Positions 12,330-45,031 of a DNA stretch of 64,000 bases are shown piece after piece. A program made the position numbers and the translations under genes. The DNA lies in the NCBI RefSeq assembly GCF_026163685.1, contig NZ_JAOXSR010000001.1, forward strand, positions 682,001-746,000. The letters are read 5' to 3'. The notes under the pieces are model-generated. The model was not told the DNA's origin, ran no database searches, and saw only the letters and a program-made list of their open reading frames with translations. Position 1 is the first letter of the stretch. Every line of letters begins with the position of its first letter. The DNA comes from Oerskovia flava. GTDB taxonomy: Bacteria > Actinomycetota > Actinomycetes > Actinomycetales > Cellulomonadaceae.

Positions 12330-13874
<1,545 letters not shown>

Positions 13875-13884
13875 CAGCCCCACC

Positions 13885-13975
13885 CCTCGCCGAGGTAGAA
13901 CGCCAGAGGCCGAGGTAGAACGCCAGTCCGTGACTGGCGTTCTACCTCGGCCTCTGCGGTTCTACCTCGGCGAGG
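13885..13975. repeat. Large palindromic element built from CCGAGGTAGAAC units
   Basis: A 91-base near-perfect inverted repeat: a 44-base left arm (13885-13928), CGT loop (13929-13931) and 44-base right arm (13932-13975) with only two mismatches. Each arm contains two copies of the unit, CCGAGGTAGAACGCCAG forwards and its complement backwards. It fills nearly all of the space between the convergent guaB and murA stop codons and should act at least as a bidirectional terminator. The same unit recurs at 42415-42475. Confidence 0.9.
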
Positions 13976-13977
13976 TG

Positions 13978-15513
13978 TCAGTCGCGGAAGGTCTCGATCT
14001 GCGCGCCGAGCTCGATGAGGCGCTCCTGGAGCTGCTCGTACCCGCGGGAGATGATGTCGACGTTGCGGAGCACGGAGGTGCCCTTCGCGGCGAGCATCGC
14101 GAGCAGGATGACGACGGCGGGGCGCAGCGCGGGCGGGCAGCTGACCTCGGCGCCGGACCAGCGGGTCGGGCCGGTGACGTCGAGCCGGTGCGCGTCGAGG
14201 AGCCGCACGTCCGCGCCGAGCCGGGTCAGGTCGCTGAGGTGGATCGCGCGACCCTCGTAGACCCAGTCGTGGATGAGGGTCTTGCCACTCGCGCACGCCG
14301 CGATGACGGCGAAGAACGGCAGGTTGTCGATGTTCAGCCCCGGGAACGGCATCGGGTGGATCTTGTCGATCGGTGCGTGCAGCGCGCTCGGGCGGACCGT
14401 GACGTCGACGAGCCGGGTGCGTCCGTTCCGGGACAGGTACTCGGGGCTCAGCGAGTACTCCAGGCCCATCTCGGCGAGCGTCGCGAGCTCGATCTCCATG
14501 AACTCGATCGGCACCCGCGCGACCGTGATCTCCGACCCCGTGACGATGCCAGCGGTGAGCAGGCTCATCGCCTCGACCGGGTCCTCGGAGACCGCGTACT
14601 CGACGTCCGCCTCGATGCGCGGCACGCCGTGCACGCGGAGCGTCGTCGTGCCGATGCCGTCGATCCGCACGCCCAGCAGCTCGAGGTAGAAGCACAGGTC
14701 CTGGACCATGTAGTTCGGGCTCGCGTTGCGCAGGGTGGTGACGCCGTCGCGGTGCGCCGCGGCCATGATCGCGTTCTCGGTGACGGTGTCGCCGCGCTCG
14801 GTGAGCACGACCGTCAGGTCGCGTGCGGTGCCCGCGTTGACGGTCGCCTCGTAGTTCCCCTCGGTCGCGGTGACTGCGAGGCCGAACGGGCGCAGGGCGA
14901 TCATGTGGGGCTCGACGGTCCGGGTGCCGAGGTCGCAGCCGCCCGCGTAGGGCAGGGCGAACGAGGGCTCGAGGCCCAGGAGCGGGCCGAGGAACATGAT
15001 GATGGAACGGGTGCGCCGTGCGGCGTCCACGTCGATCGCCGCGAGGTCCAGCTGTGCCGGGGCGACGATCTCGAGGTCGCGGCCGTCGGTGGACCACGTG
15101 GCCCGCACGCCGATGCTGCGCAGGACGTCGACGATCCGGTCGACCTCGACGATCCGTGCGACGCCTCGCAGCGTCGTGCGCCCGCGGTTGAGGAGCGAGG
15201 CGCACAGCAGCGCCACGGCGCCGTTCTTGGAGGAGTTGACCTCGATGCGCCCGGAGAGCTGGTGCCCGCCGGACACCCGCAGGTGCGCGTGCCGGGGTCC
15301 GCCGAGGGTGATGATCTCGGAGTCGAGGGCCTGGCTGATGCGGGTCAGCATGTCGAGGCTGACGTTCTGCGAACCCTGCTCGATGCGGTGGATCGCGCTC
15401 TGGCTCGTGGCGAGGCGTTCGGCGAGTTGCGCCTGGGTGAGTCCGCGGTGCTGGCGGGCGCTGCGGATGAGCGTCCCCACCTGGGTGAGAGGTGCGTCGT
15501 CGACAAGTGTCAT
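13978..15513 (-). CDS. MurA-type UDP-GlcNAc 1-carboxyvinyltransferase fused to an N-terminal XRE helix-turn-helix
   Basis: Predicted to transfer enolpyruvate from PEP to UDP-GlcNAc in peptidoglycan synthesis. Residues about 10-66 are a complete XRE/Cro-type HTH (LIRSARQHRGLTQAQLAERL, then TSQSAIHRIEQG). From about residue 78 an EPSP/MurA fold follows with key residues kept: SKNG (Lys96, Asn97), the PEP-loop GGCDLGTRTVEPH (Cys193), and RGYEQLQERLIELGA at the C-terminus. So the enzyme looks active, and the fusion suggests a DNA-binding or moonlighting role. ATG 15513 follows TACGGT by 6 bases; ATG 15531 is an alternative. A separate canonical murA may exist elsewhere. Confidence 0.88.
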   Translation of the reverse strand: MTLVDDAPLTQVGTLIRSARQHRGLTQAQLAERLATSQSAIHRIEQGSQNVSLDMLTRISQALDSEIITLGGPRHAHLRVSGGHQLSGRIEVNSSKNGAVALLCASLLNRGRTTLRGVARIVEVDRIVDVLRSIGVRATWSTDGRDLEIVAPAQLDLAAIDVDAARRTRSIIMFLGPLLGLEPSFALPYAGGCDLGTRTVEPHMIALRPFGLAVTATEGNYEATVNAGTARDLTVVLTERGDTVTENAIMAAAHRDGVTTLRNASPNYMVQDLCFYLELLGVRIDGIGTTTLRVHGVPRIEADVEYAVSEDPVEAMSLLTAGIVTGSEITVARVPIEFMEIELATLAEMGLEYSLSPEYLSRNGRTRLVDVTVRPSALHAPIDKIHPMPFPGLNIDNLPFFAVIAACASGKTLIHDWVYEGRAIHLSDLTRLGADVRLLDAHRLDVTGPTRWSGAEVSCPPALRPAVVILLAMLAAKGTSVLRNVDIISRGYEQLQERLIELGAQIETFRD

Positions 15514-15525: not shown

Positions 15526-15637
15526 ACTCATGGATGAGATAAGACCACGGAGGTTCGGGGCTGCTGAGGCGCTTTCACGGGGCCGTCACAACATCTTCAT
15601 TCACCTGATGAGATACGCGCCGCTCATGTGCTCACGG

Positions 15638-40590: not shown

Positions 40591-41109
40591 ATGATCCACC
40601 CCGAGCCAGCGGAGCCCACCTCGACGACCCCGACCGCTGCGGCCGGGCCGGCCGCTCCGGCGGACCCGGCAACGACCACGGCAACGACCACGGCAGCGAC
40701 CACGGCAACGACCACGGCAGCGGCCGCGGGACCGAGCCCGGAGGCTGCGCGCACCGCGATCCGCAAGGCCCGCGGGTCGCTGGCGCGCTACCGCGCGGCG
40801 GCGCTCGTCACCGGCATCATGCTCCTCGTCCTCGTCGTCGAGATGCTCCTCAAGTACGTCGTGTTCCGGTTCGTCGACGGGTCCGCCGTCCTGCCGTTCA
40901 TCGAGTGGATCCCGTTCGCGCACGGGTGGATCTACGTCGTGTACCTCGTCACGGTGCTCGACCTGTGGACCAAGATGCGCTGGGGCTGGGGCCGCCTGGC
41001 GTCGCTGGTGTTCGCCGGCGTCGTGCCGGTCATGTCGTTCGTCCTGGAGAAGAAGGTCCACGCCGAGGCGGACGCCAAGCTCGGCGCGCTCGAGGAGCAG
41101 TACACCTGA
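40591..41109 (+). CDS. DUF3817 integral membrane protein
   Basis: 172 residues. An N-terminal Ala/Thr/Pro-rich, probably disordered, region (1-60) contains an ATTTATTT-type repeat made by near-exact repeats of ACGACCACGGCA in the DNA. The DUF3817 core has three hydrophobic segments: YRAAALVTGIMLLVLVVEML, FAHGWIYVVYLVTVLDL and LASLVFAGVVPVMSFVLE. Function unknown; it is widespread in Actinobacteria. AAGGA lies 10 bases before the ATG. Its stop overlaps the next start (TGATG). Confidence 0.87.
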   Translation: MIHPEPAEPTSTTPTAAAGPAAPADPATTTATTTAATTATTTAAAAGPSPEAARTAIRKARGSLARYRAAALVTGIMLLVLVVEMLLKYVVFRFVDGSAVLPFIEWIPFAHGWIYVVYLVTVLDLWTKMRWGWGRLASLVFAGVVPVMSFVLEKKVHAEADAKLGALEEQYT

Positions 41110-42434
41110 TGAGCGCCGCCCGTCGCGGCCCGGGGGAGCCGGGCAGCGCCTCGCTCGCACCGCTCGTCGAGCCACGGGCCGAGGACCTGTCGGTCGACGA
41201 GGTCGCGCGCTACGCCCGGCACCTGAGCCTGCCGGGCATCGGTCCGCAGGGGCAGCGCCGGCTGGCGGGCGCGCGGGTGCTCGTCGTCGGTGCGGGCGGG
41301 CTCGGCAGCCCCGCGCTGCTGTACCTCGCCGCGGCCGGGGTGGGCACGATCGGCATCGTGGACGACGACGTCGTGGACACCTCGAACCTGCAGCGCCAGG
41401 TGATCCACGGCGGGTCGGACGTCGGCCGGCCGAAGGTCACCTCCGCGACGGAGACGATCGCGGAGGTGAACCCGCACGTGCGGGTCGTCGAGCACGCGGT
41501 GCGCCTCGACGCCTCGAACGCGCTGGACGTCCTGGCGGGCTACGACGTCGTCCTCGACGGCGCGGACAACTTCGCGACCCGCTACCTCGTGTCCGACGCC
41601 GCGGAGATCAGCGGTATCCCGGTCGTCTGGGGCTCGATCTACCGGTTCGGCGGTCAGGTGAGCGTGTTCTGGGGCCGGCCCCGCCCCGCTCCCGGTGCGG
41701 TCGACGGTCCCGCCGGCGTGACCTACCGGGACGTCTTCCCGGAGCCGCCGCCGCCCGGTGCCGCGCCGGACTGCGCCACGGGCGGGGTGCTCGGCGCGAT
41801 GTGCGGGACGATCGGCTCGGTCATGGCGACCGAGGCCGTCAAGCTCGTCACGGGGGCGGGCACGACGCTGCTGGGTCGCCTGGCGGTCTACGGCGCGCTC
41901 GACCTCACGTGGCGCCAGCTCACCGTCCGGCCGGACCCCACCCGGCCCCCCGTGACCGCGCTGCTCACCGGCGACGACGCGTACGCGGCGTTCTGCGGGG
42001 TCGCGGCCCCGGCGACCGCGGCGCCCGGTGAGGCGGACGCGGCGGGCGAGGGGCCGTCGTCGGGCCCGGGCGCGGGCCCGGCGGAGGTGGCGCGCCTGCT
42101 GGCGGGCGGGTCCGTGCTGCTCGACGTCCGCGAGGAGTGGGAGGCGAAGCTCGCGCCCCTGGCGGGCGCGCACGTGGTGCCGAGCGGACGGTTCGTCGGC
42201 GGCGAGGACGACGCCCGGGCCGCGCTGGCCGAGCTGGGCGACGTGGCTGACCTGACCGCCGACGGGCCGCTGCTCGTGGTCTGCGCCGCGGGCATCCGGT
42301 CGGCGCGCGTGGTCGAGGTGCTGCGCGCGGCCGGCGTCGACGCCCGCGACGTCCTGGGCGGCGCCCCGGCGCTCCGCGCCGCGCTGACCCCACGCCGAGA
42401 GAGAACCCCCGTTGCCGAGGTAGAACTCCAGTGA
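41109..42434 (+). CDS. MoeB/MoeZ/ThiF-type adenylyltransferase with C-terminal rhodanese domain
   Basis: E1-like enzyme that adenylates the C-terminal Gly-Gly of a sulfur carrier (ThiS, MoaD or CysO) and hands over sulfur through the rhodanese domain. 441 residues. VLVVGAGGLGSPALLYLAAAG is the nucleotide loop, VDTSNLQRQVIHG and LDGADNFATRYL are E1 signatures, and CATGGVLGAMCGTIGS has the conserved cysteines. The rhodanese part (about 335-425) has VLLDVREEWE and the loop VVCAAGIRSARV. The lack of a thiF in the neighbouring thi operon makes ThiS a likely partner. The last seven codons and stop come from a repeat element. Confidence 0.88.
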   Translation: MSAARRGPGEPGSASLAPLVEPRAEDLSVDEVARYARHLSLPGIGPQGQRRLAGARVLVVGAGGLGSPALLYLAAAGVGTIGIVDDDVVDTSNLQRQVIHGGSDVGRPKVTSATETIAEVNPHVRVVEHAVRLDASNALDVLAGYDVVLDGADNFATRYLVSDAAEISGIPVVWGSIYRFGGQVSVFWGRPRPAPGAVDGPAGVTYRDVFPEPPPPGAAPDCATGGVLGAMCGTIGSVMATEAVKLVTGAGTTLLGRLAVYGALDLTWRQLTVRPDPTRPPVTALLTGDDAYAAFCGVAAPATAAPGEADAAGEGPSSGPGAGPAEVARLLAGGSVLLDVREEWEAKLAPLAGAHVVPSGRFVGGEDDARAALAELGDVADLTADGPLLVVCAAGIRSARVVEVLRAAGVDARDVLGGAPALRAALTPRRERTPVAEVELQ

Positions 42435-42475
42435 CGTACTGGAGTTCTATCTCGGCGACTGCCGTTCTACCTCGG
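42415..42475. repeat. Second CCGAGGTAGAAC-type palindromic element
   Basis: CCGAGGTAGAACTCCAGT (42415-42432), a 5-base loop GACGT, then ACTGGAGTTCTATCTCGG (42438-42455), differing from a perfect complement at one base that still allows a G-U pair. A third, inverted unit GTTCTACCTCGG follows at 42464-42475. The left arm overlaps the end of the adenylyltransferase gene including its TGA. It lies at the convergent junction with thiG. Confidence 0.88.
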
Positions 42476-42504: not shown

Positions 42505-43629
<1,125 letters not shown>

Positions 43630-43637
<8 letters not shown>

Positions 43638-44934
43638 GCGGTTCTCCTGCGAAGGTCGGGCGAGGGTCGCTCGAGGGCGTGGCGTACGGGTCGGTGTGCC
43701 CGGGGTCGGTGCGCCCGGGGTCGAAGCGGCCGGGGTCGACGGCCGCGACGGACGCTGGCAACGGGCGTCCCGCGAGCAGGGCGTCGAGCGCGGCGGCGGT
43801 GAGGGGCGCGAGCAGGACCCCGTTGCGGTGGTGCCCGGTGGCGAGCACCAGGCCGGGCACGGCCGTCGGGCCGAGGAGCGGCAGGTTGTCCGGGGTGGTC
43901 GGGCGTCCGCGGGGCGTGACGTCGACGAGCGCGGCCTCGTCGATGCCGGGGACCAGGACGCGGGCGTCGCGCAGCAGGGCGAACACCCCGCCGGCGGTGG
44001 CGCGCCGGTCGTCGGGGCGTTCCTCGCTCGTTGCTCCGACGACGACCTCGCGGCGCCCGTCGGGTCCGGCGAGCCGGGGCACCACGTACACCGGGCGCCC
44101 CTGCACGATGCCGCGCACCACGTGCGCGAGGTCGAGGTCCGGGGCGTCGAGCCGCAGCGTCTGGCCCGTGACCGGGCGCGTGGGGGCGCCGATCTCGGGG
44201 AGGCCAGCCAGGAGCTCGCCCGTGCGCCACCCGGCGGCGAGCACGACGGTCGCGGCGCGGTGCGTCGTCCCGGCGTCGTCCAGCGCCCCCGTCACCGGTC
44301 CGCGGGAGCCGGACCGGGTGAGCCGCACCACGCTGCGCGGCACGACGGCGGCGCGCGGGTCCGCGTCGAGCACCCGCCGCAGCGCACGGTGGGTCGCGCG
44401 CGGGTCGACCTGGTGGTCACCGGGCGCCCAGAGGGCCCCCGAGAGGCGTGGGCCCAGCAGGGGTTCACGGCGCCGTGCGTCGGCGAGCGTGAGCTCGGTC
44501 GAGTCCAGCCCCCACCGGTGGTGCAGCGCGAGGACCCGGCGGGCGGCGACCAGGTCGTCGGCGTCGTAGGCGACGGTGAGGGTGCCGCACGCGCGCAGGG
44601 CGACATCGATCCCGGAGGCCGCCTCGAGCTCGGCGGCGAACGCCGGCCACAGCGCCGCCGAGTCCGTGCTCAGCCGCAGCAGGCGCGACTCACCGAAGTC
44701 CGCCTCGGTGACGGGGGCGAGCATCCCGGCGGCGGCGTGGGTGGCGCCGTCCCCGGGCGACGGGTCGAGGACCGTCACCGACAGCCCCGCGCGCAGCGCG
44801 CGCCACGCGGCCGTCAGCCCGATGATGCCGCCCCCGACGACGACGACGTCGCGGGACGATCCCGTGGCGGGCGTGGTGCTCGCAGGGTCGGGCACGTCCG
44901 ACCGGTCCGGAGCGGACGGCAGGCCAGGATCCAT
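43630..44934 (-). CDS. thiO: Glycine oxidase ThiO
   Basis: FAD enzyme that oxidises glycine to the imine used by ThiG. About 434 residues. DVVVVGGGIIGLTAAWRALRAG is the FAD-binding Rossmann motif, THAAAGMLAPVTEADFGESRL the DAO-family block, and GHHRNGVLLAPLTAAALDALL the C-terminal signature. An upstream ATG at 44955 lies inside the riboswitch, so ATG 44934, with GAAGGGAG as ribosome site, is chosen. First gene of thiO-thiS-thiG, controlled by the TPP riboswitch. Confidence 0.92.
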
Positions 44935-45031
44935 GGGTGCTCCCTTCGCTGGCATGACCCAGATCAGGTTCGACGGTCGGCGCCCTGCGCCCTCTCAGCC
45001 CCGTGCTGGGGCTCCCGTGCTCCGCTCACCC
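44935..45031 (-). promoter_or_regulatory. TPP riboswitch (THI element)
   Basis: On the minus strand the aptamer reads GGGTG (P1) ... ACGGGAGCCCC-AGCA-CGGGGCTGAGAG ... GACCGTCGAACCTGATC-TGGGTCATGCC-AGCGAAGGGAGCACCC. The conserved GCTGAGA, ACCTGATC and TCATGCCAGCGAAGGGA words are all present, in order. P1 pairs GGGTG with CACCC right before the thiO ATG; since GAAGGGAG is also the ribosome site, control is probably at translation initiation: TPP binding hides the site. Confidence 0.93.

Follow-up and report, generated by a model that had tools for sequence, protein, structure and literature searches.

A dispersed family of palindromic repeat arrays at gene 3′ ends in a few related actinobacterial genera

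The long palindrome between guaB and a murA-like gene is one member of a dispersed, non-coding repeat family found in a few related actinobacterial genera. The arrays of this family lie at gene ends, have the potential to form hairpins and combine a near-fixed core with covarying linkers, and their spread among relatives is patchy. On balance, we conclude that they probably represent a REP/BIME-like family with an architecture of its own and no detectable RAYT, which holds the slot of a bidirectional terminator; that the arrays end transcripts is what their position and folding suggest.

In the window (the whole stretch of 64,000 nucleotides that was analysed), guaB on the + strand and the murA-like gene on the - strand converge on this palindrome, designated element 1. 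The features of the junction are as follows.

13885..13975: element 1, a palindromic array in the guaB/murA gap, with two 20-bp units on the + strand and then two inverted units
13890..13901, + strand: unit 1, core CGAGGTAGAAC, exact match
13910..13921, + strand: unit 2, exact match
13939..13950, - strand: unit 3, inverted, exact match
13959..13970, - strand: unit 4, inverted, exact match
12342..13874, + strand: guaB, from an open reading frame and gene call, with relatives in 80 named loci; ends 15 bp before unit 1
13978..15480 (longer start at 15531), - strand: murA-like gene, from a gene call, named from its translation; ends 8 bp from element 1

A sequence-only reading of this DNA had described a near-perfect 91-base palindrome, and its anatomy was borne out: the arms measure 44 bases, with two adjacent mismatches between them and a 3-base loop, CGT. 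Two unit copies per arm had also been claimed, correctly: the 20-bp units are built around the core CGAGGTAGAAC, and CCGAGGTAGAAC matches exactly at 13890 and 13910 (+) and at 13939 and 13959 (-), a spacing of 20 bp inside each arm. The RNA fold of positions 13880-13980 reaches -92.8 kcal/mol (z -15.4), and none of 200 shuffles folded as well. In this fold, as in columns 26-29 of alignment A1, the motif GTAG sits inside the paired arm. A terminator scan of 13800-14050 returned 0 sites, and no T run follows the hairpin. Across the window, 14 matches to the unit were found with at most two mismatches, against a mean of 4.19 and a maximum of 13 in 100 shuffles.

The suggestion that the palindrome belongs to a dispersed REP/BIME-like family gained support from the genome in which the window lies (G000; 4.11 Mb, 22 contigs, 99.99% complete), where copies are numerous. 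The core CGAGGTAGAAC occurs 92 times exactly, versus 0 times for its reversed control, and 366 versus 42 times with one mismatch, so the repeat is not confined to two copies. Defining an array as at least two units within 62 bp, we counted 34 arrays in 42 stretches retrieved from this genome. Covariance model R1, built from 25 arrays that include the element 1 it scored, recovered 33 genomic places, 25 of them used in building it, from a search in which 150 of 5384 candidates were scored. These counts bear directly on the idea that the arrays are nothing more than ordinary terminators whose resemblance is due to chance or convergence. Relatives do carry long hairpins at the guaB junction, as this idea would have it; the 92 exact cores versus 0 reversed ones and the presence of the same core in 6 genera leave it hardly any credibility, and we regard it as refuted by copy number.

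Most exact cores (80/92) lie in arrays. The other 12 are single, 10 of them inside called genes, all in the one frame that reads Phe-Tyr-Leu, and 2 outside genes. Because single copies in this genome are mostly in frame within genes, the baseline of other family genomes, mostly about a dozen exact copies or fewer, is probably coding. The layout of the arrays is regular: same-strand neighbours are one 20-bp step apart in 78 of 81 cases, in 27 of 31 arrays the inverted blocks are 27–28 bp apart where they meet, measured between core starts, and the + block precedes the - block in all 31 two-strand arrays, an order that in the other five genomes is forced by the pattern used to pick loci. CGAG(G/A)TAGAAC, repeated every 20 bp, is a better description of the conserved unit. 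Three arrays (L136, L142 and L146) are direct-only, with no inverted partner, and all three are oriented in the sense of the abutting gene. In genus g6, unpaired array L400 runs in the sense of its gene and L398 does not; given this one-to-one split, strand polarity was dropped as a general feature.

The next convergent junction found to carry an array in the window is that of element 2.

42395..42475: element 2, array of type ++--
41109-42434, + strand: ThiF/MoeB-like gene (name from reading), which runs into element 2 and stops inside it at 42434
42505-43410, - strand: ThiG-like gene (name from reading), on the other side of element 2

The unit had been said to recur as a palindrome at a second convergent junction. 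It does so, in four units at 42395 (2 mismatches), 42415 (0), 42444 (1) and 42464 (0), and element 2 is a far less perfect palindrome than element 1, with mismatches at 1 of 18 positions in the inner stem and 6 of 20 in the outer part. Arrays are present at 2 of the 11 convergent gene pairs in the window and absent from 9, which indicates that the genome does not need an array to end transcripts. An Rfam scan of the window matched only a TPP riboswitch (RF00059, 69.9 bits) at 44924-45028 on the - strand, upstream of a run of thiamine-like genes.

Enrichment at convergent junctions, which had been anticipated, is marked. Among the 34 arrays, 16 are in convergent, 16 in codirectional and 2 in divergent gaps (32/34 convergent or codirectional), compared with 18, 118 and 49 of the 185 other gaps in the same stretches, these background gaps being at least 20 bp long and shorter than most array-bearing ones, with genes called by a simple purpose-written script. 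Convergent gaps are thus over-represented (16/34 versus 18/185, Fisher p 1.2e-6) and divergent ones depleted (p 0.007). Both divergent arrays come from loci in which a single membrane-protein-like gene lies between arrays (L113:4406-5357 and L143:4227-5079). Integron-like cassettes were considered for the loci where arrays flank genes (L113, L143 and L135) and rejected, as the flanked genes are of differing kinds. In G000, the distance from gene 3′ side to array ranges from -46 to +43 bp in all 48 cases, so that a further hairpin could hardly fit in between; gene start sides (n=20) are 18-294 bp away.

Some genes end inside the arrays themselves. The ORF enters the array at 14 of the 48 gene ends, and 12 of these 14 stop at the TAG of the first core, versus the one third expected from random frames (p 8e-5). 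TAG is the stop codon of 48 of 364 called genes overall versus 14 of 48 array-abutting ends. Five other genomes together gave 23 gene ends within arrays, 14 of them at the first core (0 in G170, 7/10 in G187), and the lending of TAG per gene end ranges from 0/11 in G170 to 7/48 in G187. At the junction represented by L401-L412, the sequences of several congeners show the - gene ending at the TAG of the flanking core.

To separate core from linker, we aligned the 25 of 34 arrays that passed the filter. Inner-unit core columns barely vary, and linker columns vary on both arms. Pairing is nevertheless maintained in 87.7% of cells, versus 37-43% in slid versions of the alignment, and 65 cells are changed on both sides versus 33.5 in shuffles, a value that none of 500 shuffles reached. 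Counted by column pair, two-sided change shows only a slight excess (14 versus 11.3 shuffled; 32/500 reach it). Identity between arrays is 89% in the core and 55% in the linker; linkers within one arm are 65% identical, and those of opposite arms of one array 60%, slightly more alike (permutation p 0.022). Single consensus units, of which seven were typed, fold at 0 to -4.4 kcal/mol and form no self-standing stem-loop. Template switching in imperfect palindromes could also create covariation at the DNA level, a point against the terminator reading; it could perfect the arms, yet could not hold one core across loci and genera. An Rfam scan of 13 array loci gave no match.

The family is present in relatives, as had been expected, with a patchy distribution. 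Searching the 221 genomes of the family for the inverted core pair, with either G or A allowed, gave 28 carriers spread over 6 of its 25 genera (g1 1, g6 13, g9 1, g16 4, g17 1, g19 8). Genus g16 is Oerskovia-like, its guaB being 93-96% identical to that of Oerskovia rustica. Of 396 genomes sampled in the order, 3 have the strict core pair; they belong to the 35 from the own family, and 0 of the 361 from other families have it. The 6 genera have a common core with genus-specific periods: 20 bp in G000 and G138, 19 in G170, 16 in G187, and 21 in G115 and G122. Core dialects also occur, namely CGAGATAGAAC in G194, CGAGGTAGAGC in G120, G124 and G113, and CGAGGTAGTAC in G121.

If the duplex core were bound by a conserved protein (gyrase-like, nucleoid or barrier) handling collisions or supercoils where genes converge, one would expect the core to be preserved across genera that differ in linkers and period, as is observed, and the direct-only arrays of G000 fit such a site as well. 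Half of the arrays, however, are away from convergent junctions, the distribution is patchy (28/221), and periods of 16, 19, 20 or 21 bp mean that no common helix face is kept. We therefore consider a protein-bound site of this kind improbable.

The reading of the arrays as terminators draws its main support from what relatives carry in the same guaB slot. The core is at the 3′ end of guaB in 0 of 80 named guaB loci, four of which have one copy 2-3 kb off. Among 16 further family genomes, G194 alone carries an array at this site; its period is 16 bp and its core is the variant CGAGATAGAAC. Nine relatives were hand-picked from these 80 named and 16 further loci for a hairpin test with loops of at most 12 bases: besides the array of G194, the test gave unrelated hairpins in seven (arm length 13-26 bp) and a score of just 8 bp in G187. 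Other long hairpins were observed at the guaB 3′ end in L181 (G122, 26-bp arms with AT-rich parts) and L174 (G187), and these possibly belong to other dispersed families.

We propose that the arrays, placed past stop codons where relatives carry unrelated hairpins, most likely either terminate transcription coming from both sides or label and shield the 3′ ends of those transcripts. Because tandem units (20 bp here), near-fixed at CGAG(G/A)TAGAAC but variable in their linkers, are repeated in inverted orientation, one strand could fold into a long hairpin; transcripts from either side would run into it no more than about 45 bases past the stop and would end there or be trimmed back. As for the constancy of the core, either some factor may recognise it, or copying errors driven by the hairpin may homogenise the arms while selection holds the core. 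Several observations count against a terminator role: the lack of a T run at element 1, the absence of arrays from 9 of the 11 convergent pairs in the window, the 8 bp of G187 at guaB, the 6 of 11 gene 3′ sides that are within 50 bp of an array in G170, and two loci (L387 and L393) in which an ordinary GC-rich hairpin comes straight after the stop codon with the array composite beyond, so that the array there is not the first terminator candidate.

The composites of genus g6 are of a different form. In 15 of 20 stretches from G115 and G122, chosen mainly for nearby opposite-strand blocks, a gap of 113-674 bp free of called genes separates the + and - blocks; three of the remaining stretches have genes between blocks and two have a single block. 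The inner segment of L381 recurs in five other loci with about 84-88% identity across 150-218 bp. A nested hairpin of about 90 bp with 22-bp ends, GGGTGGGTGGTGGTGCCGCGTC, was observed in many composites (L381-L397; G115 and G122), a possible second repeat family. One junction was compared across 14 congeners: nine carry an element (degenerate in G112), ranging from a simple +-- palindrome (G120) to a 1.1-kb composite (G122), and five carry none. No clean empty site was found among the 14, the five array-less congeners differing in neighbour genes or gene calls.

Such composites raise the question of whether the repeat is selfish or neutral, spreading like a miniature mobile element and surviving past gene ends with no role in ending transcripts. 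Its copy number jumps within genera (117 exact cores in G138 versus 2-9 in 17 congeners; 333 in G187 versus 4-38 in 12 congeners), and the spaced blocks of g6, their shared inner segments and the entry of arrays into coding ends would all be expected of such an element. Against this, pairing of the linkers is kept, the array occupies the slot of other hairpins in relatives, and neutral decay after copying would not produce 89% identity in the core next to 55% in the linkers. A purely selfish repeat is thus unlikely, and we prefer the reading in which the arrays hold a terminator slot.

A search for the mobilising enzyme used Y1_Tnp (PF01797), which we take to be the Pfam family where RAYTs are expected. 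Neither the own genome nor any of 53 relatives, 27 carriers among them, yielded a match, though a strongly diverged enzyme could be missed; matches were obtained in 5 of 14 control genomes, including E. coli. The RAYT link raised by the sequence-only reading was thus not supported, and RAYT was rejected as the amplifier. Nor did a scan of ten proteins encoded at array loci reveal a transposase: six lie between the blocks of L399, L382 and L388, one adjoins the L399 block, and three are the products of flanked genes in G000. A phage or plasmid origin was rejected after blastn of 13880-13980 returned 4 plasmid and 4 phage records with a best query cover of 34%; a scan of viral contigs gave at least 120 stretches, with one match each in the 80 loci listed. 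Our search of the open-access literature found no paper describing this repeat family, and none on binding of AGAAC by NusA, which we had considered as a candidate role of the core.

PMC2817692 attributes REP/BIME repeats to RAYT transposases, and according to PMC3733652 a TAG stop is often lent by GTAG REPs to flanking ORFs; the word Actinobacteria is absent from both texts. The arrays could in principle be genuine GTAG REPs that owe their spread to a RAYT since lost or too diverged to be recognised: GTAG is in the core, TAG is lent at 12 of 48 gene ends, as PMC3733652 describes for GTAG REPs, and the convergent and unidirectional 3′ location is the same. With PF01797 at 0/1 in the own genome and 0/53 in relatives, lone units that hardly fold, and GTAG in the paired arm, we judge this very unlikely. 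It is possible, if somewhat doubtful, that the repeats amplify with no REP transposase at all, through a factor that recognises CGAG(G/A)TAGAAC in DNA or nascent RNA, copies arrays from one gene end to another and keeps the core constant, leaving linkers and period free to drift among genera. REP/BIME-like habits with no RAYT detected make the need of such repeats for RAYT testable, and a fixed core with genus-specific periods and linkers separates the part that would be recognised (the core) from the part that merely pairs (the linkers).

Comparison with known systems places the family as follows. DNA uptake sequences of Neisseria and Haemophilus have a core of roughly ten bases, are often inverted at gene ends, and occur as many isolated copies with a receptor. 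The repeat described here shares the first two traits, but 80 of its 92 exact cores are in arrays and 10 of the 12 singles in genes in the Phe-Tyr-Leu frame. MITE-like elements have terminal inverted repeats, a target duplication and a matching transposase. The inverted blocks of g6 flank shared non-coding segments as MITEs do, whereas block length varies, no target duplication was identified, no transposase was found in the ten proteins and no clean empty site among the 14 congeners. Like bidirectional intrinsic terminators, the arrays offer a strong hairpin right past the stop codons of convergent genes; unlike them, they are much longer, have no T run (in the element 1 region scanned) and have one core common to dozens of loci in several genera.

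The closest likeness is to GTAG REPs and BIMEs as presented in PMC3733652 and PMC2817692, further comparison sources being PMC6006769 and PMC8266576 and the stem-loop survey PMC1590033. Both are high-copy dispersed palindromes with GTAG present, clusters and complementary stem changes, and both are located between convergent or unidirectional genes near 3′ ends and lend TAG to ORFs. The architecture differs. A GTAG REP unit is a stem-loop with a stem of 6-13 bp and an unpaired GTAG at one end, whereas the unit here is not itself a hairpin (0 to -4.4 kcal/mol) and carries its GTAG inside a paired arm, with units head to tail in each arm and no Y1/RAYT found. We conclude that the family behaves like REP/BIME but should not be filed as GTAG REP.
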